A stretch of 36,057 nt of DNA from Bacteroidota bacterium (GTDB lineage Bacteria > Bacteroidota > Bacteroidia > Bacteroidales > UBA10428). Location: positions 1 to 36,057 of the forward strand of contig QKEH01000153.1 of assembly GCA_003252385.1 (NCBI GenBank). Direction: 5' to 3'. The notes under the pieces were generated by a model, which saw only the letters and a list, made by a program, of their open reading frames with translations, was not told the origin of the DNA and did not search any database. This document shows positions 19,589 to 35,336 of this stretch, piece by piece. Both the position numbers and the translations under genes were made by a program. The first letter of the stretch is position 1; each line of letters begins with the position of its first letter.

Positions 19589-21730
19589 ATGCAGCAACTT
19601 ACCCAGCAACTAAAAACCGGACAGATGGAAATTGTGGAAGTGCCGGTACCCCGTTTGCAAAGCGGGCAACTTTTGGTTCGGAACCATTATTCCGTGATCA
19701 GTGCCGGTACCGAGGGGAAAACCGTTTCCGACGCACGTAAAGGCTACCTGGCCAAAGCCCGTTCACGACAGAAGGAAGTGAAACAGGTGTTGGATCTGGT
19801 AAAGGCGCAAGGGTTTAAGGCTGCCTACGATGTGGTTATGAACAAGCTGGAGGCTCTCTCGCCCCTGGGTTACAGTTGTGCCGGGGAGGTGATTGCCATA
19901 GCTCCGGATGTGAAAGGATTTAAGGTGGGCGATAAGGTAGCCTGCGGAGGTGCCACGGCCTCGCATGCCGATGTAGTGGCGGTACCCAAAAATCTGTGCA
20001 CTAAAGTAGCCGATCAGGTAAGTTCAAAGGAGGCCGCATTTACCACCATAGCCAGTATTGCTCTCCAGGGAATCCGTCAGAGTGACTTGCAGGTGGGAGG
20101 TACTTGTGTGGTGATTGGTTTGGGGCTCATTGGAATAATAGCCATGAAGTTGTTGGAAGCCTCCGGGATAAAAGCATTTGGTATTGATGTGGATGCCGGG
20201 GCGGTGGAACGAGCACGCAAGAAATTTGGTTTCTCGGCTGCGCTTCGTTCTGCTTCCGGCTTGGTGGATGAGGTACAACTGGGGTCGGGTGGCTATGGAG
20301 CCGATGCCGTGCTGATAACCGCCGGAACCAGCAGCCTCGATCCGGTAAACCTGGCAGGCCAATTGTGCCGGCAAAAGGGTATTGTGGTGGTTGTGGGAGC
20401 GGTGCCTACGGGCTTCGACCGTAAAGATTATTACCGCAAAGAACTCGACCTGCGCATGTCGTGCTCCTACGGCCCGGGGCGTTACGATGCCCGTTACGAG
20501 GAGCAGGGGATCGACTACCCCGTGGCCTATGCCCGCTGGACCGAGCAGCGCAACATGCAAACCATTGCCGACTTACTGGCTGCCGATAAACTGGTCTTCA
20601 GCGATATGATAAGTCATACCTTTCCGTTAGAAGAGGCTTCGAAAGCATACGGTCTCATTCTTGAAAAAAAGGAAAGTTTCCTCGGCATTCTGATTCGTTA
20701 TCCGGAAGAGACCGCTGAGGTGGATCGTATCGTATTTCCGCATACCACTGCCCGTCCGGAGGAACCTCGCATTGGGGTTCTAGGTGCCGGGTCTTTTGCC
20801 CACAACGTGATGCTGCCCCTGTTGCACCAGAATGGCCACCTGGAAGCTATTGCCACCTCGCAGGGCACAGCCGCCGTATTTGCCGCACGCAAATACCAAT
20901 TGCGCATGGCCACCACGCAAATGGAGGCCCTTCTCGATGATGAGCAGCTAAATACCATGGTGATTTTAACCCGTCACAACCATCATGCCCATCAGGTGAT
21001 GGCAGCTCTGCGGGCCCGAAAACATGTTATGGTCGAAAAGCCCTTGTGCATTAACGAGGAAGAGTTGGAAGAAATCCGAACGTATTACGAATCGATTCCC
21101 GGAACCAAACCCTTATTGATGGTAGGTTTTAATCGGCGTTTTGCCCCGGCTACCCGGGATAGTTTGCTCCATATCAATGCCCGTTTGCCCCGATCAATTC
21201 AGATTCGGGTGAATGCTGGCACCCTGCCCCCCGAGCATTGGGTTCACGATCCGAAAGCCGGCGGGGGGCGTATTGTTGGCGAAGGATGTCACTTTATCGA
21301 TTTGGCAGCCTGCCTGGCCGGATCGGAAATTGTCCGGGTAGCTGCCAGTGCTATGCAAACACCGGGTAGTACCTGCGATACCGTTACAGTCAACCTTGAG
21401 TTTAAGAACGGCAGTGTGGCAGGTATTGCCTACTTTTCCAATGGGAATAAGCGGGTAGCAAAGGAAGAAATTGAAATATTTAGCGGAGGAACCGTATTAC
21501 GGATTATCGATTTTAAGCTTTTAGAAATCAATACCGAACGCAATACCAAAACCATTAAGTACAAAACAGCCGACAAAGGCCACCGGAACGAAGTGTCACT
21601 TTTTATGCAGGCTATTCGCGAAGGCCGGGAAGCACCCATCACTTTTGATCAGATCTATCAGAGCATGAAAGCTACCTTTGCGGTTGAAACGTCTATCCGG
21701 GAAAAACGAAGCCTTGCACTAACGCAATAG
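19589..21730 (+). CDS. Fused oxidoreductase: zinc-less MDR dehydrogenase plus Gfo/Idh/MocA domain
   Basis: A 713-residue protein with two dehydrogenase domains. Residues 1 to about 365 form a medium-chain (alcohol-dehydrogenase-like) reductase with the dinucleotide motif VVIGLGLIG near 172-180. Residues about 393-713 form a Gfo/Idh/MocA oxidoreductase with IGVLGAGSF at its start, VEKPLC (Glu483-Lys484-Pro485) and EGCHFIDLAACL. In the MDR half the usual GHE zinc-ligand motif reads LGYSCAGEV (Tyr95 in place of His), and the usual catalytic Cys region reads SVISAGTEGK, so the catalytic zinc site is probably missing. Such bi-domain proteins recur in polysaccharide loci, where they are thought to oxidise or epimerise sugars. 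The partners and reaction here are unknown. Its stop codon overlaps the Shine-Dalgarno of the next gene. Confidence 0.87.
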   Translation: MQQLTQQLKTGQMEIVEVPVPRLQSGQLLVRNHYSVISAGTEGKTVSDARKGYLAKARSRQKEVKQVLDLVKAQGFKAAYDVVMNKLEALSPLGYSCAGEVIAIAPDVKGFKVGDKVACGGATASHADVVAVPKNLCTKVADQVSSKEAAFTTIASIALQGIRQSDLQVGGTCVVIGLGLIGIIAMKLLEASGIKAFGIDVDAGAVERARKKFGFSAALRSASGLVDEVQLGSGGYGADAVLITAGTSSLDPVNLAGQLCRQKGIVVVVGAVPTGFDRKDYYRKELDLRMSCSYGPGRYDARYEEQGIDYPVAYARWTEQRNMQTIADLLAADKLVFSDMISHTFPLEEASKAYGLILEKKESFLGILIRYPEETAEVDRIVFPHTTARPEEPRIGVLGAGSFAHNVMLPLLHQNGHLEAIATSQGTAAVFAARKYQLRMATTQMEALLDDEQLNTMVILTRHNHHAHQVMAALRARKHVMVEKPLCINEEELEEIRTYYESIPGTKPLLMVGFNRRFAPATRDSLLHINARLPRSIQIRVNAGTLPPEHWVHDPKAGGGRIVGEGCHFIDLAACLAGSEIVRVAASAMQTPGSTCDTVTVNLEFKNGSVAGIAYFSNGNKRVAKEEIEIFSGGTVLRIIDFKLLEINTERNTKTIKYKTADKGHRNEVSLFMQAIREGREAPITFDQIYQSMKATFAVETSIREKRSLALTQ

Positions 21731-23015: not shown

Positions 23016-23108
23016 GGCTAATGATCGTGTGTTAAGGCCTGCAGCAAGGCACGGATAGAGGGGAATCATCATTAGCAAATTTGGTTTACCTAAATGTATG
23101 GCTAATGA
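23016..23108. repeat. Three copies of GCTAATGA around the DUF354 start
   Basis: GGCTAATGA occurs at 23016-23024 and again at 23100-23108, and the inverse (TCATTAGC) lies between them at 23069-23076. The first copy and the inverted copy extend to a perfect 9-base inverted repeat (23017-23025 with 23068-23076). The third copy contains the ATG start of the DUF354 gene. This may be a regulatory or RNA structure element; no known family matches it. Confidence 0.55.
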
Positions 23109-24286
23109 AGTTACTCTTTTATCTGGGGCACCCGGCTCACTATCACTTGTTCAAAAATGCCATCCGGTATTTTAAAGGGGAAGGGCAACACGTTACGGTT
23201 CTGATAAAGAAGAAGGATGTATTGGAAGATCTGTTGGACGCAGATGGCATCCCGTACCGGAATATCTTTCCAAAAACCCGGGGTAATTCACACTTTGAGA
23301 TGGGTAGAACCATCATGAAACGCAACGCTCTTTTGTTTCAGCATTGTTTGAGAAACCGCCCCGATTTGCTCATAGGAACTTCGGTAGAAAACTCCCATAT
23401 CGGTAAGGTGTTAGGAATCCCTTCCATTAATGTGAATGAAGACGACCACGATGTGGTTCCCATGTATAGCAAGTTCAGTTACCCGCTGTCGCATACCATT
23501 CTGGCTCCTAACCCGTGTTCAACCGGGCGCTGGGAATACAAAACCATCCACTACAAAGGCTATCACGAATTGGCCTACCTGCATCCGAACCAGTTTGTTA
23601 GCAATCCCCGGATTACAGAGCAGTATATACCCTCGGGTGAACCCTATTTTCTCATCCGCTTTGCCCGGCTTAATGCCCACCATGATGAAGGAATCCGGGG
23701 CATCGATAACCGCACGGCGTTCCATATTATTGATAAGCTCAAGGCTCATGGCAGGGTGTACATCACCTCCGAGAAACAGCTGATCCCCGAATTGGAACCG
23801 TACCGGATTAAAATCAATCCGGCCGATATGCATCATATTATGGCAGGTGCCAGCCTATATATTGGCGACAGCCAGACTATGGCGGCCGAAGCCGGGGTGT
23901 TGGGCGTACCGTTTATACGCTACAACGACTTTGTGGATCGCATTGGCTACCTCAGGGAACTGGAGCGGAGCTATCATCTGGGCTATGGTATTTCTCCATC
24001 CGATCCGGGTAAACTCTTCTATACTTTAAATACCTTGCTCTCGACCCCCGATTTACGCCCCACTTTTCAAAGGAGAAGAATGAAAATGCTGCGCGAAAAG
24101 ATTGATGTTAACCAGTTTATGATATGGTTTATTGAGAATTTCCCCAAAAGTAAATCGATTATGGCAGATAATCCGGAGTTTCAGGATCAGTTTATTTCTG
24201 CAACCATCCAATCCTCCTCCGATACGGTTAAAATTAAAACAGGCAGGGAAGTTCTCACTCCGGGAGTGACGCTGAAACAAGCGTGA
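23105..24286 (+). CDS. DUF354 family protein, GT-B-like
   Basis: From ATG 23105 the product has 393 residues and begins MKLLFYLGHPAHYHLFKN, the typical DUF354 start. A TTG start at 23081 would add eight residues that do not fit the family. Other visible parts are VLIKKKDVLEDLL, LIGTSVENSHIGKVLGIPSI and the late SLYIGDSQTMAAEAGVLGVP, resembling the nucleotide-sugar-binding end of GT-B enzymes such as UDP-GlcNAc 2-epimerase or MurG relatives. DUF354 proteins are found in archaeal and Bacteroidota polysaccharide loci; their reaction is not firmly known to me. The gene is preceded by the largest gap in the polysaccharide locus, so it may start its own transcript with the sugar transferase gene after it. 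Confidence 0.8.
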   Translation: MKLLFYLGHPAHYHLFKNAIRYFKGEGQHVTVLIKKKDVLEDLLDADGIPYRNIFPKTRGNSHFEMGRTIMKRNALLFQHCLRNRPDLLIGTSVENSHIGKVLGIPSINVNEDDHDVVPMYSKFSYPLSHTILAPNPCSTGRWEYKTIHYKGYHELAYLHPNQFVSNPRITEQYIPSGEPYFLIRFARLNAHHDEGIRGIDNRTAFHIIDKLKAHGRVYITSEKQLIPELEPYRIKINPADMHHIMAGASLYIGDSQTMAAEAGVLGVPFIRYNDFVDRIGYLRELERSYHLGYGISPSDPGKLFYTLNTLLSTPDLRPTFQRRRMKMLREKIDVNQFMIWFIENFPKSKSIMADNPEFQDQFISATIQSSSDTVKIKTGREVLTPGVTLKQA

Positions 24287-25937: not shown

Positions 25938-26945
25938 CTAGGGTAAACTATTCAGGTAGCAGCCTGCCGTATAGTCGATCGTTTCCTGTAAGGGATGAAA
26001 TGTGAAAGGGATGGTTTCTTGTAGTTTTTTGGAACTGTATTTCTGGGTGTTGTTTGCCGCATGCATGCTGTGACGGGTAATACGGGCTTCCTGGCCGGAC
26101 AGGCGGCTCCACACCCATTCGCCGCGCCATAATAGTCCGGTTAAGCGCGTTGATACCAAATGACTTGGAGCTTTCCGGCGAAGAGCTTTGGCAATCGCAC
26201 TAAATGCAGACAGGTAACTTTCGTTGGCTCCGTTAACAATAAAACGCTCGCCGTAAATGGGTTGCTCCATTAGCAGTTGAGCAACTGAGATCACATCGCG
26301 TACATCGACAAAACCGGTGCCCCCGGAAGTGGTATATCGTAAACCCCGATAGAGGACATCAAAAATACGGGCACTGCTGTGTTGCCAGTTGCCGGGACCT
26401 ACTATTACCGTTGGATTTAGTATTACGGCGTTCAACCCTTCGGCAATTCCCCTCCATACTTCCAGTTCGGCGAGGGTTTTGGTTTTTGAATAAACCGATT
26501 TGGGATCGGTTGGCCAACCGCAACTTTCCGTTGTAGGCTCTCCCGGTTCGGGCGTGGCAATTGCGGCTACAGAGCTTATGTACAGTAACTTGCTGATGTT
26601 TTTTTCCAGGCAGGTGTTAACCAGGTTTCGTGTAAGTTCAACATTGGATTGCCACAGTTGCTTTTTAAGGCGGGGGTCGAAACTTACCTGGGCAGCGCAG
26701 TGGTATACCAGGCGAGCTCCTTCCAGTGCTTCCGAAAGGGCTTCTGTATCGCTCCAATCCAACGGATACCATTCCACCCGGTTTATTAACTCATCCGGGT
26801 TGGTCGTTAGATGTTTCCATACCTCAAATACTTTTTCCGGCGAGGTCTGTGGTCGGATCAGGGCGCGAACCTTGTTATCTCCCCTGATAAGCTGGAATAA
26901 CAAATGGCCGCCTACCAATCCGGTGCCTCCGGTTACAACAATCAT
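25938..26945 (-). CDS. Extended SDR, NAD(P)-dependent epimerase/dehydratase-like reductase
   Basis: A 335-residue protein with the nucleotide-binding motif VTGGTGLVGG (4-13), an NNAG-equivalent YHCAAQVSF (81-89), catalytic Ser near 124-125 (LYISSVAAI) and YSKTK with Tyr152 and Lys156. It continues with NPTVIVGPGNW, typical of extended SDRs such as dihydroflavonol-reductase-like and nucleoside-diphosphate-sugar epimerases. The substrate is unknown. Its gene starts 9 bases downstream of the CPBP protease stop on the same strand, so it is probably the last gene of a four-gene minus-strand operon. It converges on the sugar transferase gene, and no clear terminator hairpin is visible in the 39-base gap between them. 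Confidence 0.87.
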   Translation of the reverse strand: MIVVTGGTGLVGGHLLFQLIRGDNKVRALIRPQTSPEKVFEVWKHLTTNPDELINRVEWYPLDWSDTEALSEALEGARLVYHCAAQVSFDPRLKKQLWQSNVELTRNLVNTCLEKNISKLLYISSVAAIATPEPGEPTTESCGWPTDPKSVYSKTKTLAELEVWRGIAEGLNAVILNPTVIVGPGNWQHSSARIFDVLYRGLRYTTSGGTGFVDVRDVISVAQLLMEQPIYGERFIVNGANESYLSAFSAIAKALRRKAPSHLVSTRLTGLLWRGEWVWSRLSGQEARITRHSMHAANNTQKYSSKKLQETIPFTFHPLQETIDYTAGCYLNSLP

Positions 26946-26954
26946 AACAATAGC

Positions 26955-27881
26955 TTAGGATGAAATGGGTTGCCAAAGTTTTTTCCAATTCCTCCATTGG
27001 AATTTTTTATGGCTCACCAGAATAAACACAGTTGCCGCCAGAAGGAAAAACAGATTCATCAGCCAGGGATGCAACTGTTCGATATGCCAAATGGAGGGTG
27101 TTTGCAACACCGAGGATTCATAGCTTACAAACACGGCGCTGTAAATATTGCTTACGGCATGAATGCCACATGCCATTTCAATACCATTATCCATCACTAC
27201 CAACAGTCCGGCGAAAATGCCAAAACCGATGTAGTAGGGCATGGTCGATGCAAGTCCAAACAAACGTACTTCGGGGTTGGTGATATGCAACAGCCCAAAA
27301 GCTATCGAGGTAATGAGTAAGGCTGCCAGTCGGGAGTTGAACAGCAAACCCATACCCTGCATCAGGTAGGAGCGGAACAGGAGCTCTTCAAACCAGGTTT
27401 GGAGTGGGATCATGACCAAGGCAATACCCAGCAGGGGAAAGAATAGTCGGGCATTAAAATGATAGCTGTAATTCTGGGGCATGAGCAGTGCGGTAAGGAT
27501 TTCGGCGAATACCAGGAGCAGCAGCCAAAAACCTGCGGCATAGAGCAAACGTTTCCAGCGCAGCTTTCCGTATGCCGATGCCATTTGCCCTGTATTTCGG
27601 CCGTGGAGCCAGCGAATGAAGAACCACAATGTGAAAAAACCAGCTACCGCCGGGAAAAGGAGCATGGCCAGGCCCGGGTTTTTACCAATTCCAATAAACT
27701 CCGGATTATAGGTTTGCGCAAACGACACCACATCTACCGGAAATCCCTGGCGGTTTTGGTACCAGATGGCCAGGCTCACCGGGAGCGAACCCAGAACCAG
27801 GTAGGCGAAAACAGTGGCCGTTAGCGTGATGGCATAGCGCCACCACGATGGTTTACTTTCTTTCGCATATTGAAAATACAT
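26955..27881 (-). CDS. CPBP family intramembrane metalloprotease
   Basis: From ATG 27881 the protein has 308 residues; an in-frame TTG at 27923 would add 14 residues and is less likely. It has about eight hydrophobic segments. The CPBP (Abi/CaaX-protease-like) motifs are all present: EELLFR (Glu165, Glu166 and Arg170), AFGLLHIT (His199) and GIHAVSN (His241 and Asn245). These form the membrane-embedded metal site. Family members cleave membrane or prenylated substrates or act in bacteriocin self-immunity; the substrate here is unknown. It lies between SiaC-like genes and an SDR gene on the same strand. Confidence 0.9.
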   Translation of the reverse strand: MYFQYAKESKPSWWRYAITLTATVFAYLVLGSLPVSLAIWYQNRQGFPVDVVSFAQTYNPEFIGIGKNPGLAMLLFPAVAGFFTLWFFIRWLHGRNTGQMASAYGKLRWKRLLYAAGFWLLLLVFAEILTALLMPQNYSYHFNARLFFPLLGIALVMIPLQTWFEELLFRSYLMQGMGLLFNSRLAALLITSIAFGLLHITNPEVRLFGLASTMPYYIGFGIFAGLLVVMDNGIEMACGIHAVSNIYSAVFVSYESSVLQTPSIWHIEQLHPWLMNLFFLLAATVFILVSHKKFQWRNWKKLWQPISS

Positions 27882-27944
27882 ACCCTTCTCAATTTTGAAC
27901 GGCGCAAGATAGTCAAACCCCAAGGAAATTGGTAACCGGACGGT

Positions 27945-28334
27945 TCAGATTTCTCTTAAATGAAACGGAATATACAGGGTGGTTTTTAGTAACTCTCCTG
28001 TCTCCAGTATGGTCTCATCGTCGGATTCGAAATACCAGTTAATTTCGATCATTCCCTTTTCCCGGGTCAGTTCCTGGAGCGATTTTAGAAGGATATGCAG
28101 CCATTTTGCCGAGGTGGTATTGATGTATTCAAACCTACAATCGATAATAAGTGTGTAACGGAAATTGTAAAAACAACTTTCCAGTTTTTTATAGAGTTCC
28201 TCGTAAAAAAACTGGGGAACGGTCATTCGTGAAAAACCCTGAATTTCCACTTTTTTTAAACGTTCCCGAACAATAACGTTGGGGAATTCGCATGCTATTG
28301 ATGTTTTTCCTTTGCTTGAGACAAACCAACCCAT
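27945..28334 (-). CDS. SiaC-like (DUF1987) protein, Thr form
   Basis: A 129-residue protein without signal or membrane segment. The strand-helix pattern and the motif EYINTTSAKWLHILLKSL (69-86) match the SiaC family (DUF1987), in which the Asn-Thr-Ser-Ser segment holds the threonine phosphorylated by the kinase SiaB in Pseudomonas (Thr68, from memory). Here Asn72-Thr73-Thr74-Ser75 keep a phosphorylatable residue. SiaC partners with a diguanylate cyclase and controls biofilm formation in Pseudomonas. No SiaA, SiaB or SiaD gene is seen in the window. It lies 44 bases downstream of a second SiaC-like gene. Whether it acts in a similar partner switch is inferred. Confidence 0.72.
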   Translation of the reverse strand: MGWFVSSKGKTSIACEFPNVIVRERLKKVEIQGFSRMTVPQFFYEELYKKLESCFYNFRYTLIIDCRFEYINTTSAKWLHILLKSLQELTREKGMIEINWYFESDDETILETGELLKTTLYIPFHLREI

Positions 28335-28378
28335 ACTTTAATGATTAAAGTTACCACCATCACACCCTCAAGTTTGAA

Positions 28379-28759
28379 CTATTCTGCCGTTTGCGACAGC
28401 AGGTTCACCCGGAACGTGGTTTCATTCTGAAGAAGTTGCCCGCAGGCGAGTACTGACGGGCTTTTCCCGTTCAGATACATGTTTATTTCGATTCCCGTTC
28501 CGGGAGCAAGCAGCATCAGCTTGCGGAATATGAGCCGCAACCAGCGCGATGAACTGTCGTTCATGCGTTGAAGTTTAATATTGATCGTAGCAGTATGAGA
28601 ATGTCCTTTGTTGAACGCAATTAACCATTTCAGAAGATTGCTGTAAAACCAATTGGTTTCGGTTAGGGTGGATATGCCCGAAATTTCTACCAGGCTCTCG
28701 GCTTCGTTCATATATACCCGGGGCGAATCAATACCTCCTTCAATAGAAAAAGTTCTCAT
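28379..28759 (-). CDS. SiaC-like (DUF1987) protein, natural Asp form
   Basis: From ATG 28759 the protein has 126 residues and begins MRTFSIEGGIDSPRVYMNE, a typical DUF1987 start; the frame is open nine codons further upstream, but those do not fit the family. The key segment reads LQRMNDSSSRWLRLIF, where Asn67-Asp68-Ser69-Ser70 align with Asn-Thr-Ser-Ser of SiaC, so the phosphorylated threonine is replaced by Asp. This could mimic the phosphorylated state permanently. It is the first gene of the probable minus-strand operon, and its promoter should lie in the intergenic region that also serves the divergent efflux operon. Confidence 0.75.
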   Translation of the reverse strand: MRTFSIEGGIDSPRVYMNEAESLVEISGISTLTETNWFYSNLLKWLIAFNKGHSHTATINIKLQRMNDSSSRWLRLIFRKLMLLAPGTGIEINMYLNGKSPSVLACGQLLQNETTFRVNLLSQTAE

Positions 28760-28949
28760 AGCTGTACGTTTAAACCTATAGTGCACCTGTATGGCCCGAA
28801 CCCTTATGTTTCCAATGCCTATGGAATTTCCAGACTTCGGGATGCTAACAAGTGTTTCAATGGATTAGCACCTAGGTTATTTCCAGCTAAAGTATTATTC
28901 TGTTGCTCGATACTCAACGATTGATCAGTGATTGTTGTTGATTCCTGGG

Positions 28950-28963
28950 ATGAGATATCTCAT
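28950..28963. promoter_or_regulatory. Perfect 14-bp palindrome, candidate CRP/FNR-like operator
   Basis: ATGAGATATCTCAT is a perfect palindrome with TGA-N6-TCA spacing, like many CRP/FNR-family sites. It shares 11 of 14 positions, including ATATCTCA, with the site at 22954-22967. It lies about 190 bases upstream of the SiaC-like start and about 250 bases upstream of the efflux operon. A few palindromes of this length are expected by chance in the whole window, so support is limited. Confidence 0.35.
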
Positions 28964-29130
28964 AACTTTTTTATCCACAGGTTGTTCATAACTCCAATTG
29001 ACATTTTAAGGGTTAATATCGGTTGCGAGCACCGGTTTTAGGCGGCAAAAGGGGATTAACCGCCTATTTTACCGATAACTGGCAACTGTTAACCGATTTA
29101 TTTTTTAGTATCCCAAAGCAGACTCCTATT

Positions 29131-29160
29131 TTTGTCGGCAAATTCGAATAGGTACATGTT
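29131..29160 (+). promoter_or_regulatory. Candidate Bacteroidota-type promoter of the efflux operon
   Basis: TTTG at 29131-29134 and TACATGTT at 29153-29160 are 18 bases apart and resemble the -33 (TTTG) and -7 (TAnnTTTG) elements of Bacteroidota promoters; the -7 element matches at four of six defined positions. The efflux operon starts at 29210. The inverted repeat at 29143-29172 overlaps it. Confidence 0.35.
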
Positions 29161-29172
29161 AGGCTATTCGAA
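29143..29172. promoter_or_regulatory. Inverted repeat operator candidate upstream of efflux operon
   Basis: TTCGAATAG (29143-29151) and CTATTCGAA (29164-29172) are perfect 9-base arms with a 12-base spacer. The repeat overlaps the candidate promoter and ends 37 bases before the first efflux gene, which fits a repressor or activator site. No regulator gene lies next to it in the window. Confidence 0.5.
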
Positions 29173-29209
29173 ATAAAAATGCACAATAATATTTAAACAG
29201 TTCAGAAGA

Positions 29210-30580
29210 ATGAAATTAGGGATAAATGCAGGTGTTGTTCTGCTGGGAAGCCTGTTAACGTTTCAGTTGATGGCACAGAGTGATACCATCGAAAAGTCGT
29301 TTTCGCTGGAGGAAGCTCAAAAATTTGCGGTAGATAACTATTATCAAAGTAAAAACGCGTCGCTCGACATAAAATCGGCCAAATGGAAGGTATGGGAGAC
29401 CACGGCTATTGGCTTGCCTCAGGTTTCTGTTTCGGCCTCGTACCAGCACATACCCGGCGATATACCGGCAATCGATTTTGGTAGCGAACTTGCGGTCATT
29501 TTTGAACCGTTGGCAGAGGCCGGAATCTTGGATCCCAATGCAATTCCTGCCGGAGAGCCTTCGGCCATTGCTGTGCGTAATTCGTTAACCTATACGGCAA
29601 CGGTTTCGCAGCTTATTTTCAGCGGCGAATACATTGTGGGCTTACAGGCTTCCAAGGCTTATCAGGGCATGTCGGCGGAAGCCTCGGAAAGAACCAACCT
29701 GGAAATCAAAGCTTCAGTGGCGGAGGGCTATTATTCGCTTCTGATACTGAAAGATAACCGGGAAGCAGTGGTAAAAACCCTGAAGAATTTACAGGATAAC
29801 CTGGTCCGTATGCAAAAGATGTACAAGCAGGGATTTATCGAAGATACCGAGGTCGACCAGATAGACCTGGTGGTTAAAACAACTGGTAACGAATTGGCCT
29901 CTATGGATCGGCAAATCGAGTTTTTAGAAAACATGTTCAAATACCAGATTGGCCTGGAACCGCAAACCAAGGTTACCCTTACCGAAGCCATTGATGACCT
30001 CATAGCCCGGAACCTGGTGAACGATTCGAACTACGTTTTTAACCTCGACAAGAACATCGACTATCGGATGCTGAGTACCCAGGAGCGCTTAATGGAGCTG
30101 AGCATGCGTCGCGAGCAATCAAAGTATTTGCCCAGCGTGGCTGGATTCTATCAATACCAGGATAAAACCGAGAAGGCCGATTTCGACTTTACGATCAATC
30201 ACATTGTCGGGGTAAGCGTGGAGGTTCCCATTGTGACCAGTGGTTCGCGAATTGCAAAGGTAAGCCAGGCACGTATTGAGTACGAAAAGGCGCTCAACCA
30301 AAAGGAACAGGAGGCCAACCGACTGGTTACCGCTGCGCGGCAGGCCAGTTACGATTACCATACAGCGGTGGAAAAGTATACCAACGCACTGGACAATCTC
30401 CATTTGTCGGCCAGGGTGTACGAGAAAACCAATTTGAAACACCAACAAGGTGTGGTGTCGAGCCTAGAACTTACGCTGATCAATAATCAGTACCTGCAGG
30501 CTCAAATGGGCTATTCCATGGCTGTACAGGAACTTCTGACCGCTAAAACCAAGTTGGATAAAGCTTTCAATCTATTATAA
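29210..30580 (+). CDS. TolC-family outer membrane efflux protein
   Basis: A 456-residue protein with an N-terminal signal peptide (about 1-22, ending LMAQ before SDTI). The remainder is rich in long amphipathic helices and has the family features: SLEEAQKFAVDNYYQSKNAS at the start, VEVPIVTSGSRIAKVSQARI in the second repeat and RVYEKTNLKHQQGVVSSLEL near the end. TolC-type proteins form trimeric beta-barrel channels with a periplasmic alpha-helical tunnel. The length is normal for the family. It is the first gene of a three-gene operon with the adaptor and RND permease, so it provides the outer membrane exit duct. The exported substrate is unknown. Confidence 0.92.
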   Translation: MKLGINAGVVLLGSLLTFQLMAQSDTIEKSFSLEEAQKFAVDNYYQSKNASLDIKSAKWKVWETTAIGLPQVSVSASYQHIPGDIPAIDFGSELAVIFEPLAEAGILDPNAIPAGEPSAIAVRNSLTYTATVSQLIFSGEYIVGLQASKAYQGMSAEASERTNLEIKASVAEGYYSLLILKDNREAVVKTLKNLQDNLVRMQKMYKQGFIEDTEVDQIDLVVKTTGNELASMDRQIEFLENMFKYQIGLEPQTKVTLTEAIDDLIARNLVNDSNYVFNLDKNIDYRMLSTQERLMELSMRREQSKYLPSVAGFYQYQDKTEKADFDFTINHIVGVSVEVPIVTSGSRIAKVSQARIEYEKALNQKEQEANRLVTAARQASYDYHTAVEKYTNALDNLHLSARVYEKTNLKHQQGVVSSLELTLINNQYLQAQMGYSMAVQELLTAKTKLDKAFNLL

Positions 30581-30583
30581 CCC

Positions 30584-31855
30584 ATGTATACTATTATAAA
30601 GAACACCATAATGAAAAGAGCAGGATTACTAGTTTTAACGGTTGTTATGGCAGCTTGCGGAGGGCCAACGACCAGCGAAAGTATCGAAAAACTGATTACC
30701 CGAAGAGATTCGCTCCAGCAGGTGCAATACCAGCTGGATAAGGAACTGAACGCCATTGACCAGCAAATTGCCCTGTTGGATACCTCGGCCAGCAAGGAAG
30801 ATGTCAAGCTTCAGAAGCTGATTACCATGCAGAAGGATCGTATGGCAAAGATGGAACTGAAAGTAAGACAGTTGGAGAATAAACTCTCCAAGCCTGAGGA
30901 AGATAATTTAACTCCCGTGGCGGTAAAAGAGATGAAAGGCGAAACCTTCAAACACTACATAACTGTTTACGGTGAGGTAGAGGCCGATAAGTATGCCATG
31001 ATCAGCCCTGAGATGGGCGGCCGTATTCAAGGGATACCTGTAAATGAAGGTCAGCGAGTGGGCAAAGGGGAATTATTAGTGTCCCTGAATACCGAAGCGA
31101 TCCAAAAACAGATCGAAGGTTTGGAAAGCAGCCTGGAATTTGCGGTGAGCACTTTCGAAAAGCAAGATGTTTTATGGAAACAGGGCATTGGTTCTGAAAT
31201 GCAATACTTACAGGCTAAGAATACCAAAGAAAACCTCGAAGCACAATTGGAATCGTTAAAAGCCCAGAAACAAATGGCTCAAATCCGGGCACCTTTTGAC
31301 GGGGTAGTGGATAAGATCTTTCTGAAAGTGGGCGAGCTGGCTTCCCCTGGATTTCCGGTTGTGGAATTTGTGAATTTGAGTCGTATTACCATCAAAGCCG
31401 ATGTGCCGGAGAAATTTATCGACGAGGTGAAAACCGGCCAGGAGGTAGAACTTACCTTTGCTGCATTGCCGGGGATGATTTTAACCGCACCAATTAAGAA
31501 TGTGGCTAAAGTTATCAATAGTGCCAGCCGTACCTTTCAAATTGAGCTTTCGGTGAACAATGCCGGCGAGCGCATCAAACCCAATATGGTATCTTCTATT
31601 CGTATCAACGACTTTACCCGCGAGAGTGCTTTTGTGGTTCCTTCCCTGGTAATTCGGAAGGATATTTCGGGCGAATTCCTCTACCTGGTTAAAGAGCAGG
31701 AGGGTAAATCCATCATTTCCAAACAATATGTTAAACCCGGCAAAGCCAATAACGACCAATCACTTATTCTGGAAGGTTTACAGGAAGGCGACCAAGTGGT
31801 GGTGGAAGGTTTCCATCTGGTGAGCACAGGGCTGCCGGTAAAAGTTGTAGAATAA
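30584..31855 (+). CDS. RND efflux periplasmic adaptor (membrane fusion protein), lipoprotein
   Basis: The frame gives 423 residues from ATG 30584; an ATG at 30611 gives 414 and starts the signal cleanly (MKRAGLLVLTVVMAAC), with a lipobox ending at Cys16 by that numbering. The lipoyl and coiled-coil parts follow: VEADKYAMISPEMGGRIQGI, EGQRVGKGELLVSL, a long helical hairpin, then RAPFDGVVDKIFLKVGE. The beta-barrel and membrane-proximal parts contain KTGQEVELTFAALPGM and ESAFVVPSLVIRK. An extra N-terminal coiled coil (about residues 30-110) precedes the first lipoyl half. It bridges the permease and outer membrane channel and lies 3 bases after the channel gene. Confidence 0.92.
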   Translation: MYTIIKNTIMKRAGLLVLTVVMAACGGPTTSESIEKLITRRDSLQQVQYQLDKELNAIDQQIALLDTSASKEDVKLQKLITMQKDRMAKMELKVRQLENKLSKPEEDNLTPVAVKEMKGETFKHYITVYGEVEADKYAMISPEMGGRIQGIPVNEGQRVGKGELLVSLNTEAIQKQIEGLESSLEFAVSTFEKQDVLWKQGIGSEMQYLQAKNTKENLEAQLESLKAQKQMAQIRAPFDGVVDKIFLKVGELASPGFPVVEFVNLSRITIKADVPEKFIDEVKTGQEVELTFAALPGMILTAPIKNVAKVINSASRTFQIELSVNNAGERIKPNMVSSIRINDFTRESAFVVPSLVIRKDISGEFLYLVKEQEGKSIISKQYVKPGKANNDQSLILEGLQEGDQVVVEGFHLVSTGLPVKVVE

Positions 31856-31874: not shown

Positions 31875-34800
31875 ATGAGTGTAAAAGAACTATCACAACA
31901 AGTAATACGGGAGTTTAAGCTTACAACGCTGGCTCTCAAAAACAAGAACACGGTATACCTGCTCTCGTTCATTCTTTTAATAGCCGGGGTAATTTCGTAC
32001 CGGAACCTGCCCAAGGAACTGTTCCCGGAAATTACCTGGCCACAGATTATGGTTCAAACCATATATTTCGGGAATTCCCCGGAAGATATTGAGAACCTGA
32101 TTACCCGCCCCCTGGAAAAGGAATTGGAGAATGTACGCGGATTGAAGGAACTAACCTCCATTTCGGCTCAGGATGCTTCCATGATTTTTGTGGAATTCAA
32201 TACCGATGTGGATATCGAAGATGCCTTGCGGCGGGTGAAGGATGCAGCCGATAATGCCAAGAGCGAACTGCCATCGGGCGATGACATACAGGGCCCTCTG
32301 GCATTTGATATCGATTTCAGTGAATTTGCCATCCTGAATATCAACCTCTCAGGCGATTACAGCGTGGAAGAGCTAAAAAACTATGCCGAATATCTTCAGG
32401 ACGAAATTGAGGCTATTGGTGAGGTGTCCAAGGTCATTATCGAAGGGGTAAACGAGCGGGAAATCAAAATCAACGTGGATCTGGTGAAACTGGAGGCCAT
32501 GGAACTTTCTTTCTACGATATCACCAATGCCATCCGGGCTGAAAACGTGACCATTTCGGGAGGCGAAATTTTGCTGGGGCAAACGCGCCGTGGCATACGC
32601 ACCCTTGGGGAGTTCAAAAAAGTGAAAGACCTGGAAAACATCATCATCAAGAAGGATGAAGGTAAAATTGTTTACTTGAAGGATGTGGCCCAGGTAGTGG
32701 ATGGTTTTGCCGAACCCACTTCGTTTGCCCGTCTTAACCAGGAACACGTGGTATCCGTTCAGGTGGTTAAGAAGGGGGGAGAGAACCTGCTCACCACTAC
32801 CGCTGCCATCTACAAAACGCTCGATAAAGCCAAGGCAGATAACATGTTGCCCGAAAACCTGAATATTTCCATTACCAACGATCAGAGTGAAATGGTTCAG
32901 ATGCAGCTCGATAACCTCGAGAACAGCATGATTATGGGCGTGATTTTCGTGGTGCTCATTCTTTTCTTCTTTCTGGGAACGCGCAACGCCCTTTTTGTGG
33001 GTCTGGCCATTCCCATGTCCATGTTCATTTCCTTTGTGATCATTGGAGCAATCGATTTTCGCATTAATATGATTGTGCTTTTTGCCCTCATTCTGGCTTT
33101 GGGAATGTTGGTAGACAATGCCATTGTGGTGGTGGAAAATATCTACCGGTTTGTCGACAACGGTTTTGAACCCTGGGAGGCAGCCCGGCAGGCGGTGGGC
33201 GAAATTGCCATACCCATTATTGCTTCAACGGCTACCACGCTGGCGGCCTTCCTGCCCCTGGCTTTCTGGGATGGTATTATGGGTGAGTTTATGAAGTATT
33301 TGCCCATTACCCTGATCATCGTATTGTCCTCGTCCCTGTTTGTGGCACTGGTTATCATTCCGGTTATTTCGGCCACTTTTATTAAGGTAAAAGGAAGCAA
33401 TGAGAATAACGGATCGGCACAGCGCAAACTGGCCTTTTCCGTAGCCAGTATCATGGTAGTGGCAGGTGTCCTGCTGTTGCTGGCTGATAAGCGGATTTTT
33501 GGAAACCTGCTCATTATTTTCGGGGCTATCGGGTTCATGAACCTTTTGTTCCTGAAACGGATGGAATCCTGGTTTCAGGATATCTTCCTGGTACGGCTCG
33601 AACGGGTTTACAGCAAGGTATTGTATTTTGCACTGCATGGTAAAAACCTCATACTCTTTTTTGTAGGCACCTTTGTGCTGATGATTCTTACGATCATTCT
33701 GTTCTTTTCCCGTATGCCCGATGTGGAATTGTTCCCTGATTCCGATCCCAACTACATTAACGTGGTTTGCGAACTGCCCATTGGAACCGATATTACCGGG
33801 ACAAACGAATTTGTGGAAAAACTCGAGAAGGATATGGTCACCTTCTTTGAACCCTATAAAGATGTGGTAGAATCAATCTTATCTACTGTGGGCAAAGGCG
33901 ATCCCATGGACTTTTCGGCGGGGGCTAAGCCAAACCAGGCAATCGTAACTATTAGTTTTATCGATTACGAAGACCGGGGCGATGTGAGCACCGGTGATTT
34001 GATGGCCAAGTTGAGCGATTTTGCGCTGAACCGTTATCCGGGTGTGGAATTGGAAATTTCGAAGGACGAAGGTGGCCCTCCTACCGGGAAGCCCATTAAC
34101 CTGGAAATACGCGGGCAGGATTTTGATAAACTGGTGTACCTGGCCGATACCATTAAAACGCACCTCGAGCTGGCTGAAATTGATGGGGTGGAAGGCCTTA
34201 AAATGAATATCAGCACCCAGAAACCGGAAATACTCATCCATATCGATCGCGACAAAGCCCAACGTTTTGGATTAAGTACGCAAACCATTGCCTTTACGCT
34301 GCGTCAGGCACTGTTTGGCGAAGAAGTTTCGAAATTTAAAGTGGGCGAAGATGAATATCCCATTCAGGTACGTCTGGCCGATCAGTACCGCTACGACCTG
34401 TCATCGCTGATGAATATGAAAATGGTGGTTTACGGCGATGGGCCTCCCACATACATTCCTTTATCGTCCATAGCAGATTTTGAGTACTCCACTACTTTTA
34501 GCTCGGTTCGGCGCAAGGACCTCGATCGCGTGGTAACACTATATTCCAATGTCATTGAGGGGTATAATGCCAACACCATAAACCAGCAATTGGCCGCACG
34601 CATGGAATCGTTCGCGATGCCTACAGGCTACAGCTACGAGTTTACCGGCGAAGCGCAGGAACAGCAGGAGTCGTCAGCGTTTCTGGGCAGGGCCATGCTC
34701 ATTGCGCTGGCATTGATCATGCTCATTTTGGTGACTCAGTTCAACTCCCTGATTCGTACACTGATCATTATGGCCAGTATCCTTTTCAGCACCATTGGCG

Positions 34801-35336
34801 TGTTTGGTGGCTTGTGGGCTTTCCACATGGATTTCATCATCATCATGACAGGAATTGGACTTATTTCCCTGGCAGGTATTGTGGTAAATAACGCCATTGT
34901 ACTGATTGATTATATCGAACTGCTGAAGGCCAGAAAGCGGAAGGAAATGGGGCTGCCCGAAAACACCTTCCTGCCGGTTGAAGTGGCTACCGAATGTATC
35001 ATTGAAGGAGGGAAAACCCGTTTGCGCCCGGTTTTGCTCACGGCTATTACCACCGTGTTAGGGCTGGTACCCATGGCAATTGGAATGAACTTTGATTTTA
35101 ACGGGCTTTTAAGCAATTACGATCCCAATATTTACTTTGGTGGCGACATGGCCGATATGTGGAGCCCCATGTCATGGACAGTAATTTTTGGCTTGACTTT
35201 TTCTACTTTCCTTACCCTGGTGATTGTTCCGGTTATGTACCGTATGACCACCATTGCTCAGAAAAAATGGATCAAGCTGTATTCCATATTCCAAGACAAA
35301 CGAGCCAGCATGATGCAGGACAACAATAACGGATAG
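31875..35336 (+). CDS. RND-family efflux permease
   Basis: A 1153-residue protein with the duplicated RND plan: an N-terminal helix near 30-50, a large periplasmic domain, a helix bundle, then a second periplasmic domain (about 610-930) and bundle. TM4 holds LGMLVDNAIVVVENIYRF with Asp414, equivalent to the first of the two proton-relay aspartates of AcrB; the second is Asn415. The protein is longer than the roughly 1030-1050 residues usual for AcrB-type pumps. Two extra hydrophobic stretches (about 517-535 and 543-557) lie between the two halves, and the C-terminal half has an insertion (FNGLLSNYDPNIYFGGDMAD) before its last helix. It exports drugs, lipids or other small molecules by proton exchange. 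An intrinsic terminator follows the gene. Confidence 0.93.
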   Translation: MSVKELSQQVIREFKLTTLALKNKNTVYLLSFILLIAGVISYRNLPKELFPEITWPQIMVQTIYFGNSPEDIENLITRPLEKELENVRGLKELTSISAQDASMIFVEFNTDVDIEDALRRVKDAADNAKSELPSGDDIQGPLAFDIDFSEFAILNINLSGDYSVEELKNYAEYLQDEIEAIGEVSKVIIEGVNEREIKINVDLVKLEAMELSFYDITNAIRAENVTISGGEILLGQTRRGIRTLGEFKKVKDLENIIIKKDEGKIVYLKDVAQVVDGFAEPTSFARLNQEHVVSVQVVKKGGENLLTTTAAIYKTLDKAKADNMLPENLNISITNDQSEMVQMQLDNLENSMIMGVIFVVLILFFFLGTRNALFVGLAIPMSMFISFVIIGAIDFRINMIVLFALILALGMLVDNAIVVVENIYRFVDNGFEPWEAARQAVGEIAIPIIASTATTLAAFLPLAFWDGIMGEFMKYLPITLIIVLSSSLFVALVIIPVISATFIKVKGSNENNGSAQRKLAFSVASIMVVAGVLLLLADKRIFGNLLIIFGAIGFMNLLFLKRMESWFQDIFLVRLERVYSKVLYFALHGKNLILFFVGTFVLMILTIILFFSRMPDVELFPDSDPNYINVVCELPIGTDITGTNEFVEKLEKDMVTFFEPYKDVVESILSTVGKGDPMDFSAGAKPNQAIVTISFIDYEDRGDVSTGDLMAKLSDFALNRYPGVELEISKDEGGPPTGKPINLEIRGQDFDKLVYLADTIKTHLELAEIDGVEGLKMNISTQKPEILIHIDRDKAQRFGLSTQTIAFTLRQALFGEEVSKFKVGEDEYPIQVRLADQYRYDLSSLMNMKMVVYGDGPPTYIPLSSIADFEYSTTFSSVRRKDLDRVVTLYSNVIEGYNANTINQQLAARMESFAMPTGYSYEFTGEAQEQQESSAFLGRAMLIALALIMLILVTQFNSLIRTLIIMASILFSTIGVFGGLWAFHMDFIIIMTGIGLISLAGIVVNNAIVLIDYIELLKARKRKEMGLPENTFLPVEVATECIIEGGKTRLRPVLLTAITTVLGLVPMAIGMNFDFNGLLSNYDPNIYFGGDMADMWSPMSWTVIFGLTFSTFLTLVIVPVMYRMTTIAQKKWIKLYSIFQDKRASMMQDNNNG

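Follow-up and report, generated by a model that had tools for sequence, protein, structure and literature searches.

Why should a bacterium keep, side by side on one strand, two proteins of the SiaC family, one with the threonine at which its Pseudomonas relative is phosphorylated and the other with an aspartate in its place? The question is raised by a locus in the window (the whole stretch of 36,057 nucleotides that was analysed, contig C70 of genome G000), for which an initial annotation made from the sequence alone had proposed a switchable protein accompanied by a built-in phosphomimic. The reading that we favour, with a probability of roughly 0.5, is that the upstream paralogue (UP) is a fixed, phosphorylation-independent partner of the downstream one (DOWN), acting on the same or a joint target.

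Two adjacent SiaC paralogues

The two genes, the gap between them and the codons at issue are all given for the minus strand:

28379–28759, minus strand: UP, the upstream SiaC paralogue (126 aa from ATG), with Asp68 at the phosphosite position
28556–28558, minus strand: codon GAC of Asp68 of UP, read from the sequence
28335–28378, minus strand: intergenic gap between UP and DOWN (44 bases)
27945–28334, minus strand: DOWN, the downstream SiaC paralogue (129 aa), with Thr73 at the phosphosite position
28116–28118, minus strand: codon ACC of Thr73 of DOWN, read from the sequence; Thr in 10 of 10 paired DOWN members

UP and DOWN are both SiaC-family (PF09345) proteins, scoring 56.9 and 72.6 bits, respectively, against a Pfam cut-off of 24.5; the pair of adjacent SiaC-like genes described in the initial annotation is thus confirmed both as open reading frames and as members of the family. 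Their shared strand makes co-transcription probable. An upstream GTG offers UP an alternative start that would lengthen it to 135 aa, and the alignment of its orthologues begins at the ATG.

Asp68 at the phosphosite position

The site reads INTTS, with Thr73, in DOWN and MNDSS, with Asp68, in UP. A phmmer search pairs DOWN with P. aeruginosa SiaC (PDB 6kko, E 0.0013), laying YINTTSAK over YLNTSSIK, so that Thr73 aligns directly with the Thr in the P. aeruginosa peptide LLYLNTSSIK; Asp68 of UP reaches the same Thr via the multiple alignment. This Thr has index 69 in the PDB chain count and is taken here as T68, the peptide being called "T68-containing" in the accessible part of PMC7647112. Searched against the PDB with phmmer, UP returned no SiaC and just weak unrelated ribosomal hits, and its relation to SiaC therefore rests on the Pfam score, the fold match and the alignment.

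In AlphaFold2 models of the two proteins (pLDDT 90.5 for UP and 90.3 for DOWN), helix 2 spans residues 68–84 of UP and 73–90 of DOWN. The UP model, with which alone the fold search was run, matches the SiaC structures 6k4f, 6kko, 6kkp and 7e6g at Z 17.0–17.8, the next family following at 8.9, and the strands and helices of the DOWN model are ordered similarly. The alignments and the starts of helix 2 together make Asp68 and Thr73 equivalent and put both at the site of phosphorylation by SiaB in P. aeruginosa SiaC (PMC7647112 and PMC8457831, each in excerpt). The phosphorylatable Thr/Ser that opens helix 2 is accordingly absent from UP and present in DOWN, and the placement of Asp68 at the phosphosite, suggested earlier from the motif, is borne out by alignment and model alike.

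Conservation of the pair

In a search of the 23 genomes of the family (the window's genome, G000, among them) with UP and DOWN each as query, an adjacent UP–DOWN pair was found in 10: G000, G006–G012, G016 and G020. The site of the paired UP proteins is Asp in six of these (G000, G006, G007, G009, G010 and G012; codons GAC/GAT), Glu in three (G008, G016 and G020; GAA/GAG) and Thr in one (G011; ACA), while the paired DOWN site is Thr in all 10. The pairing of Thr with an acid is hence conserved across genomes, with an acid at the aligned phosphosite in 9/10 paired UP members of the family and in 9/13 rows of the UP clade defined below. The nine other paired UP proteins are 31–58% identical to that of the window, and 15 columns are invariant among the 10; the three members with Glu also have Asp in place of Asn67.

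A clear UP match (E 4.8e-14 or better) is present in 12 of the 23 family genomes and missing from 11, where the weaker matches were not all placed by the tree. Among the clear matches, a UP homologue in G004 has no adjacent partner and carries Asn at the site; another lone homologue, in G002 (L037/L097, G002:C25), has Lys there and a stop inside the match, and is probably broken, with an RND operon still adjoining it. Outside the family, the 392 genomes of the order yielded a single candidate pair, that of G174 (Ser + Thr; 1.2e-35), no other genome beyond the family reaching better than 3.9e-27, and among 395 genomes of the class G000 alone passed 1e-27; these order and class samples were even and overlapping, with at most 11 candidates scored per genome, so that rare members may be missed. 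The Thr of G011, Ser of G174, Asn of G004 and Lys of G002 mean that the acid is not required clade-wide: at the UP site it is frequent, not obligatory.

SiaC proteins across the genus

The frequency of such a residue in the family at large was read from a census of 130 PF09345 genes, 21 of them in G000 and 109 in seven genomes of the same genus, all of which were inspected. The eight genomes, with 13 to 21 SiaC matches each, were picked for carrying the pair; G005, of the same genus and 66% complete, was excluded and shows no clear match to UP or to the Ala-site protein described below. At the site, the eight UP proteins have Asp (6), Glu (1) or Thr (1), and the 122 others have Thr (75), Ser (36), Ala (8), Ile (1) or Arg (1), one gene (G006 C11, with a stop inside its match) being unaligned at the site and dropped from the tree. 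An acid thus occupies the site in 7 of 8 UP genes versus 0 of 122 other SiaC genes, one of them unaligned, in these eight genomes, a recurrence that makes Asp68 more than chance.

The tree comprises 141 rows, 129 from the census and 12 from other genera or families, and drew a warning from the tree tool that the columns are few for so many rows. UP forms a clade of 13 rows (support 100/98) and DOWN a group of 15 (93/64), the two being joined at 99/95. The simplest history would be an old tandem duplication that preceded the split of the family's genera; on our reading of the tree, rather than by computation, the acid may have two or three separate origins, or a single one followed by reversion to Thr in G011. 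Two more tandem SiaC pairs occur in G000, at L018:6472-7323 (C161) and L020:6440-7593 (C174). Both are Thr/Thr, so that pairing in tandem does not by itself lead to an acid.

Each census genome also encodes exactly one SiaC protein with Ala at the site (8/8), and these form one clade (support 100/98):

L021:189-566 (G000:C174): Ala-locked SiaC, with seven orthologues, L237–L243

Clear orthologues of this gene (E 5.2e-26 or better) were found in the eight census genomes only. Several of its neighbours, which we take to be housekeeping genes from their sequences, are conserved in the genus.

Divergence of UP beyond the phosphosite

DOWN retains Tyr70, Asn72 and Thr73 together with an acidic loop; UP has kept Asn67, has Arg at position 65 and has lost the loop. 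Over the 141 rows, an aromatic residue stands three positions before the site in 118/120 members with Thr or Ser versus 2/21 others, and in 1/13 UP rows; a Fisher test of this association (p 2.7e-19) was set aside, the rows being related and reflecting few lineages. The mean number of acidic residues in the six-column loop is 0.69 in UP, 4.53 in DOWN, 4.74 in other Thr/Ser members and 4.25 in the Ala clade. In P. aeruginosa, Tyr65 contacts SiaD (according to an excerpt of PMC8457831), and with this residue lost UP may no longer bind the target of DOWN.

In addition, the UP clade has residues of its own, each in the majority there and rare elsewhere, which lie mostly on helix 1 (Phe4, Ser12, Thr31, Trp37, Asn41, Lys/Arg44, Ala48 and Asn50). 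Estimates of dN/dS, rough because dS is near saturation, are 0.10–0.21 for UP (five comparisons with estimable dS) and 0.12–0.40 for DOWN. Judged from these sequences, UP looks like a maintained protein, with its predicted fold intact and its switch face rebuilt, and is more than a plain Thr-to-Asp copy of DOWN.

The same changes underlie the main rival to the fixed-partner reading, according to which UP has been re-purposed for a new, phosphorylation-independent partner and its acid merely suits the first turn of helix 2 without mimicking a phosphate. Acids are preferred at the N-termini of helices, which they stabilise. The concentration of clade-specific residues on helix 1 and the loss of both the aromatic at position 65 and the acidic loop would fit such a history, as would a site that can also be Asn, Ser, Thr or Lys, and the exchange of Asn67 for Asp alongside Glu. 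The Ala clade, however, keeps its Ala in 8/8 genomes, so that not every freed site is driven to an acid by helix stability, and an acid is present in 9/10 paired members, of which the other nine are 31–58% identical to the window's protein. We regard re-purposing as possible, though less likely than the fixed-partner reading.

Kinases, phosphatases and the absent cyclase

The window's contig has no match to the SiaB-like kinase profile (PF19788) or to that of SpoIIE-type PP2C phosphatases (PF07228), in line with the earlier remark that SiaA, SiaB and SiaD are not nearby. Such genes lie elsewhere in the genome: G000 has five PF19788 matches (the seven relatives, 3–6 each) and at least 12 PP2C domains (12 PF07228 matches, besides the domain in the fusion described below), so that the search for kinases and phosphatases proposed in the initial annotation succeeded. 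Kinase and SiaC genes are neighbours on contigs C127, C145 and C150 of G000, with PP2C also on C127 and C150. A GGDEF profile found no match at E 0.001 in G000 (97.55% complete), the window's genome and the one searched, from which we conclude that SiaD, the target in Pseudomonas, is absent. An on/off effect on a SiaD-like enzyme can consequently not be assumed.

G000, whose 3.9 Mb contain 21 SiaC-family matches and no GGDEF match, would appear, from its gene content, to possess a large partner-switching network without known c-di-GMP output. Domain fusions occur within this repertoire. On contig C51 of G000, L016:7783-9849 encodes a 689-aa protein with a SpoIIE/PP2C domain and a C-terminal SiaC domain with Ile at the site, seemingly a phosphatase joined to an unphosphorylatable substrate; it was not among the 12 PP2C search matches, and its first 320 residues, without a Pfam match, look caspase-like. 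At a distance of 1.2 kb lies L016:6296-6592, a SiaC-like frame that has diverged, has the longest end branch of the tree and carries Arg at the site. Another fusion, probably of kinase and substrate, is found in G009, where one open frame of 305 aa contains in-frame matches both to SiaB-like kinases (265-648) and to SiaC (694-1062) (G009:C193:265-1062, L188).

This supply of enzymes bears on a second alternative, in which UP is a decoy that occupies the PP2C phosphatase or the SiaB kinase and thereby sets the rate at which DOWN is phosphorylated or dephosphorylated. Modelling in P. aeruginosa has SiaA staying on phosphorylated SiaC and leaving upon dephosphorylation (PMC7647112, in part); by comparison, an acid that cannot be cleaved off could inhibit in the manner of a product, and the 12 SpoIIE-type matches of the genome, together with the PP2C domain fused to SiaC on C51, would suit this role. 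The lack of any phosphatase or kinase match on the window's contig and the extent to which the face around the site is changed in UP speak against it, and we consider the decoy improbable. Still further from likely is that UP is a decaying duplicate whose Asp68 was a chance step towards loss, as the stop in the G002 match and the 11/23 family genomes without a clear UP match might hint: the low, if rough, dN/dS of UP, its kept adjacency, the 15 invariant columns and the charge-keeping exchange of Asp and Glu all argue otherwise.

Genomic neighbourhood

The genes flanking the pair are the following:

25938–26945, minus strand: NAD-dependent epimerase family protein (PF01370), following the CAAX protease gene
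26955–27923, minus strand: Rce1-like CAAX membrane protease (PF02517), 21 bases downstream of DOWN, with an unsure TTG start
28760–29209, no strand: stretch separating the SiaC pair from the divergent RND operon, from the coordinates
29210–30580, plus strand: outer membrane efflux protein of TolC type, opening the RND operon (PF02321, E 7e-37; synteny)
30584–31855, plus strand: HlyD/CusB-type periplasmic adaptor (PF16576, E 2.9e-30; synteny)
31875–35336, plus strand: AcrB-type RND transporter (PF00873, E 1.8e-196; synteny)

Neighbours were compared (tblastn, 1e-8) over 17 loci, namely 11 pairs, 2 lone UP and 4 lone DOWN genes, in stretches of the relatives of 2.5 to 19 kb (2.5 kb for G174); lone DOWN-type genes such as those of G015, G017, G018 and G019 had no wide flanks in the comparison. 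The divergent TolC–HlyD–AcrB operon adjoins SiaC in 8/17 loci: the pairs of G000, G006, G009, G010 and G012, the lone UP of G004 and G002 and the lone DOWN of G003. It is not within the fetched flank of the pairs in G007, G008, G016 and G020, and the contig of the G011 pair ends shortly after a TetR-like sequence upstream of UP; in G010 UP and the pump are separated by a TetR-type gene. Moreover, a gene of one and the same PagL-like family is found next to SiaC, without the pump, in three more loci (G016, G020 and G021) and follows the pump in G002, G012 and, with one predicted frame between, G009:

L089:485-1582, L094:7143-8234, L086, L093, L097 and L098: PagL-like genes (lipid A 3-O-deacylase family), near SiaC or after the pump

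AcrB-type matches in G000 number four at full length, one in pieces (C105), one partial (C36) and one weak. Pumps are so few that chance is, in our judgement and not by a computed probability, unlikely to have put them beside SiaC repeatedly; yet the Ala-locked gene keeps its neighbours too, so that gene order can be inherited without function. The recurrence of RND-pump and PagL-like neighbours suggests an envelope or efflux output.

The polysaccharide locus, which had been put forward as the setting of the pair, is by comparison not conserved and gives way to the more often recurring TolC–HlyD–AcrB operon. A polysaccharide link was rejected as conserved context: apart from the window, only G007 has homologues of the sugar-transferase, CAAX and epimerase genes beside the pair, and in G004 a homologue of the window's DUF354 gene (23081–24286) is found ~3 kb away from the lone DOWN (L096). 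Within the polysaccharide cluster of the window, positions 19589–21730 encode a 713-aa protein in which a zinc-dehydrogenase domain precedes a GFO/IDH/MocA domain.

Proposed function of the pair

In the fixed-partner reading, an old tandem duplication would have given rise to two SiaC paralogues with different jobs. DOWN would be phosphorylated by a SiaB-like kinase and dephosphorylated by a PP2C phosphatase, both encoded elsewhere in the genome, while UP, which cannot be phosphorylated at the site, would be held in one state by a charge resembling that of the phosphorylated form. As a subunit of a hetero-oligomer or as a competitor on the same target, UP could then serve as a constant reference against which the phosphorylation state of DOWN is read. 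Given the lack of a GGDEF match in the genome, that target would be other than a SiaD-like enzyme.

Replacing a phosphorylated residue by an acid is a general laboratory means of mimicking the phosphate. RsbS S59D is an example (PMC3944199, in excerpt). SiaC of P. aeruginosa binds its target and activates it while unphosphorylated, and phosphorylation prevents this (PMC7278518). According to the accessible part of PMC12834913, chromosomal SiaC T68D abolishes biofilm at room temperature and T68A behaves like wild type, and at 37 °C T68D makes no difference and T68A increases biofilm. At room temperature T68D thus acts as the phosphorylated state would, making Asp a reasonable phosphomimic, and by analogy UP would be fixed in a phosphorylated-like form; phosphomimicry by UP is plausible. 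An excerpt of PMC8457831 adds that T68A still supports biofilm and that it took the triple change N67A/T68A/S69A to abolish function, so that the residue at the site need not decide binding alone. The original idea of a switchable protein beside a built-in phosphomimic survives in part: Asp68 is at the phosphosite and the pair is conserved, so that both refuting observations foreseen in the initial annotation fall away, but UP has lost the aromatic at position 65 and the acidic loop and is more than DOWN frozen in one state.

A wider and more speculative proposal, which we think doubtful as a whole, is that the genus possesses a three-state SiaC toolkit, made up of many switchable Thr/Ser proteins, one Ala-locked protein (8/8 genomes) and one Asp/Glu-locked protein with a dedicated Thr partner (7/8). 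The locked forms would be references of opposite sign in a partner switching without c-di-GMP, and the acid-locked pair would control a module for envelope efflux or lipid A modification.

Nature has made both of the changes by which SiaC is frozen in the laboratory, to an acid and to Ala, each of them maintained in a single clade. These Bacteroidales have many SiaC genes, and the window's genome is without the Pseudomonas-type target, a diguanylate cyclase. Together with the Thr partner and the adjoining pump, the locked proteins form a small testable set, which offers a handle on SiaC switching outside Pseudomonas. The fold, the family and the idea of phosphomimicry were already known; neither a natural acid-locked SiaC with a switchable partner nor an Ala-locked clade was found in the titles and abstract openings of the open literature searched.

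Comparison with known systems

The nearest relative in family, fold and position of the site at the start of helix 2 is SiaC of the P. aeruginosa SiaABCD system, whose engineered T68D and T68A forms (PMC12834913, in part) are laboratory versions of both locked states. The present locus differs from SiaABCD in its natural Asp, its tandem paralogues, the lack of a kinase or PP2C match on the contig and the lack of a GGDEF match in the genome.

Beyond SiaC, the UP model resembles the anti-sigma factor antagonists SpoIIAA and RsbV (Z 8.2–8.9), in which the phosphosite opens the equivalent helix (a comparison made for 4QTP in the accessible part of PMC7647112). These belong to another Pfam family, and no sigma or anti-sigma gene was noted beside the pair, in the course of a survey without a dedicated search for them. 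A STAS-fold protein within a transporter complex is exemplified by MlaB of MlaFEDB (PMC7367683, in excerpt; 6xgz, Z 8.9); that transporter is of the ABC type, whereas the neighbour of the SiaC pair is an RND pump.

For an acid that occurs naturally at the phosphosite of a STAS domain, the closest precedent found is YtvA of the Bacillus and Listeria stressosome (PMC3019169, in excerpt). In this STAS paralogue, natural Glu residues (E168 and E202) take the place of the Thr that is phosphorylated in its RsbR relatives, and they have been suggested to mimic the phosphorylated state (PMC3019169, same excerpt). YtvA differs from UP in its LOV sensor domain and its place in the sigma-B pathway, as well as in sequence family, kinase and target.
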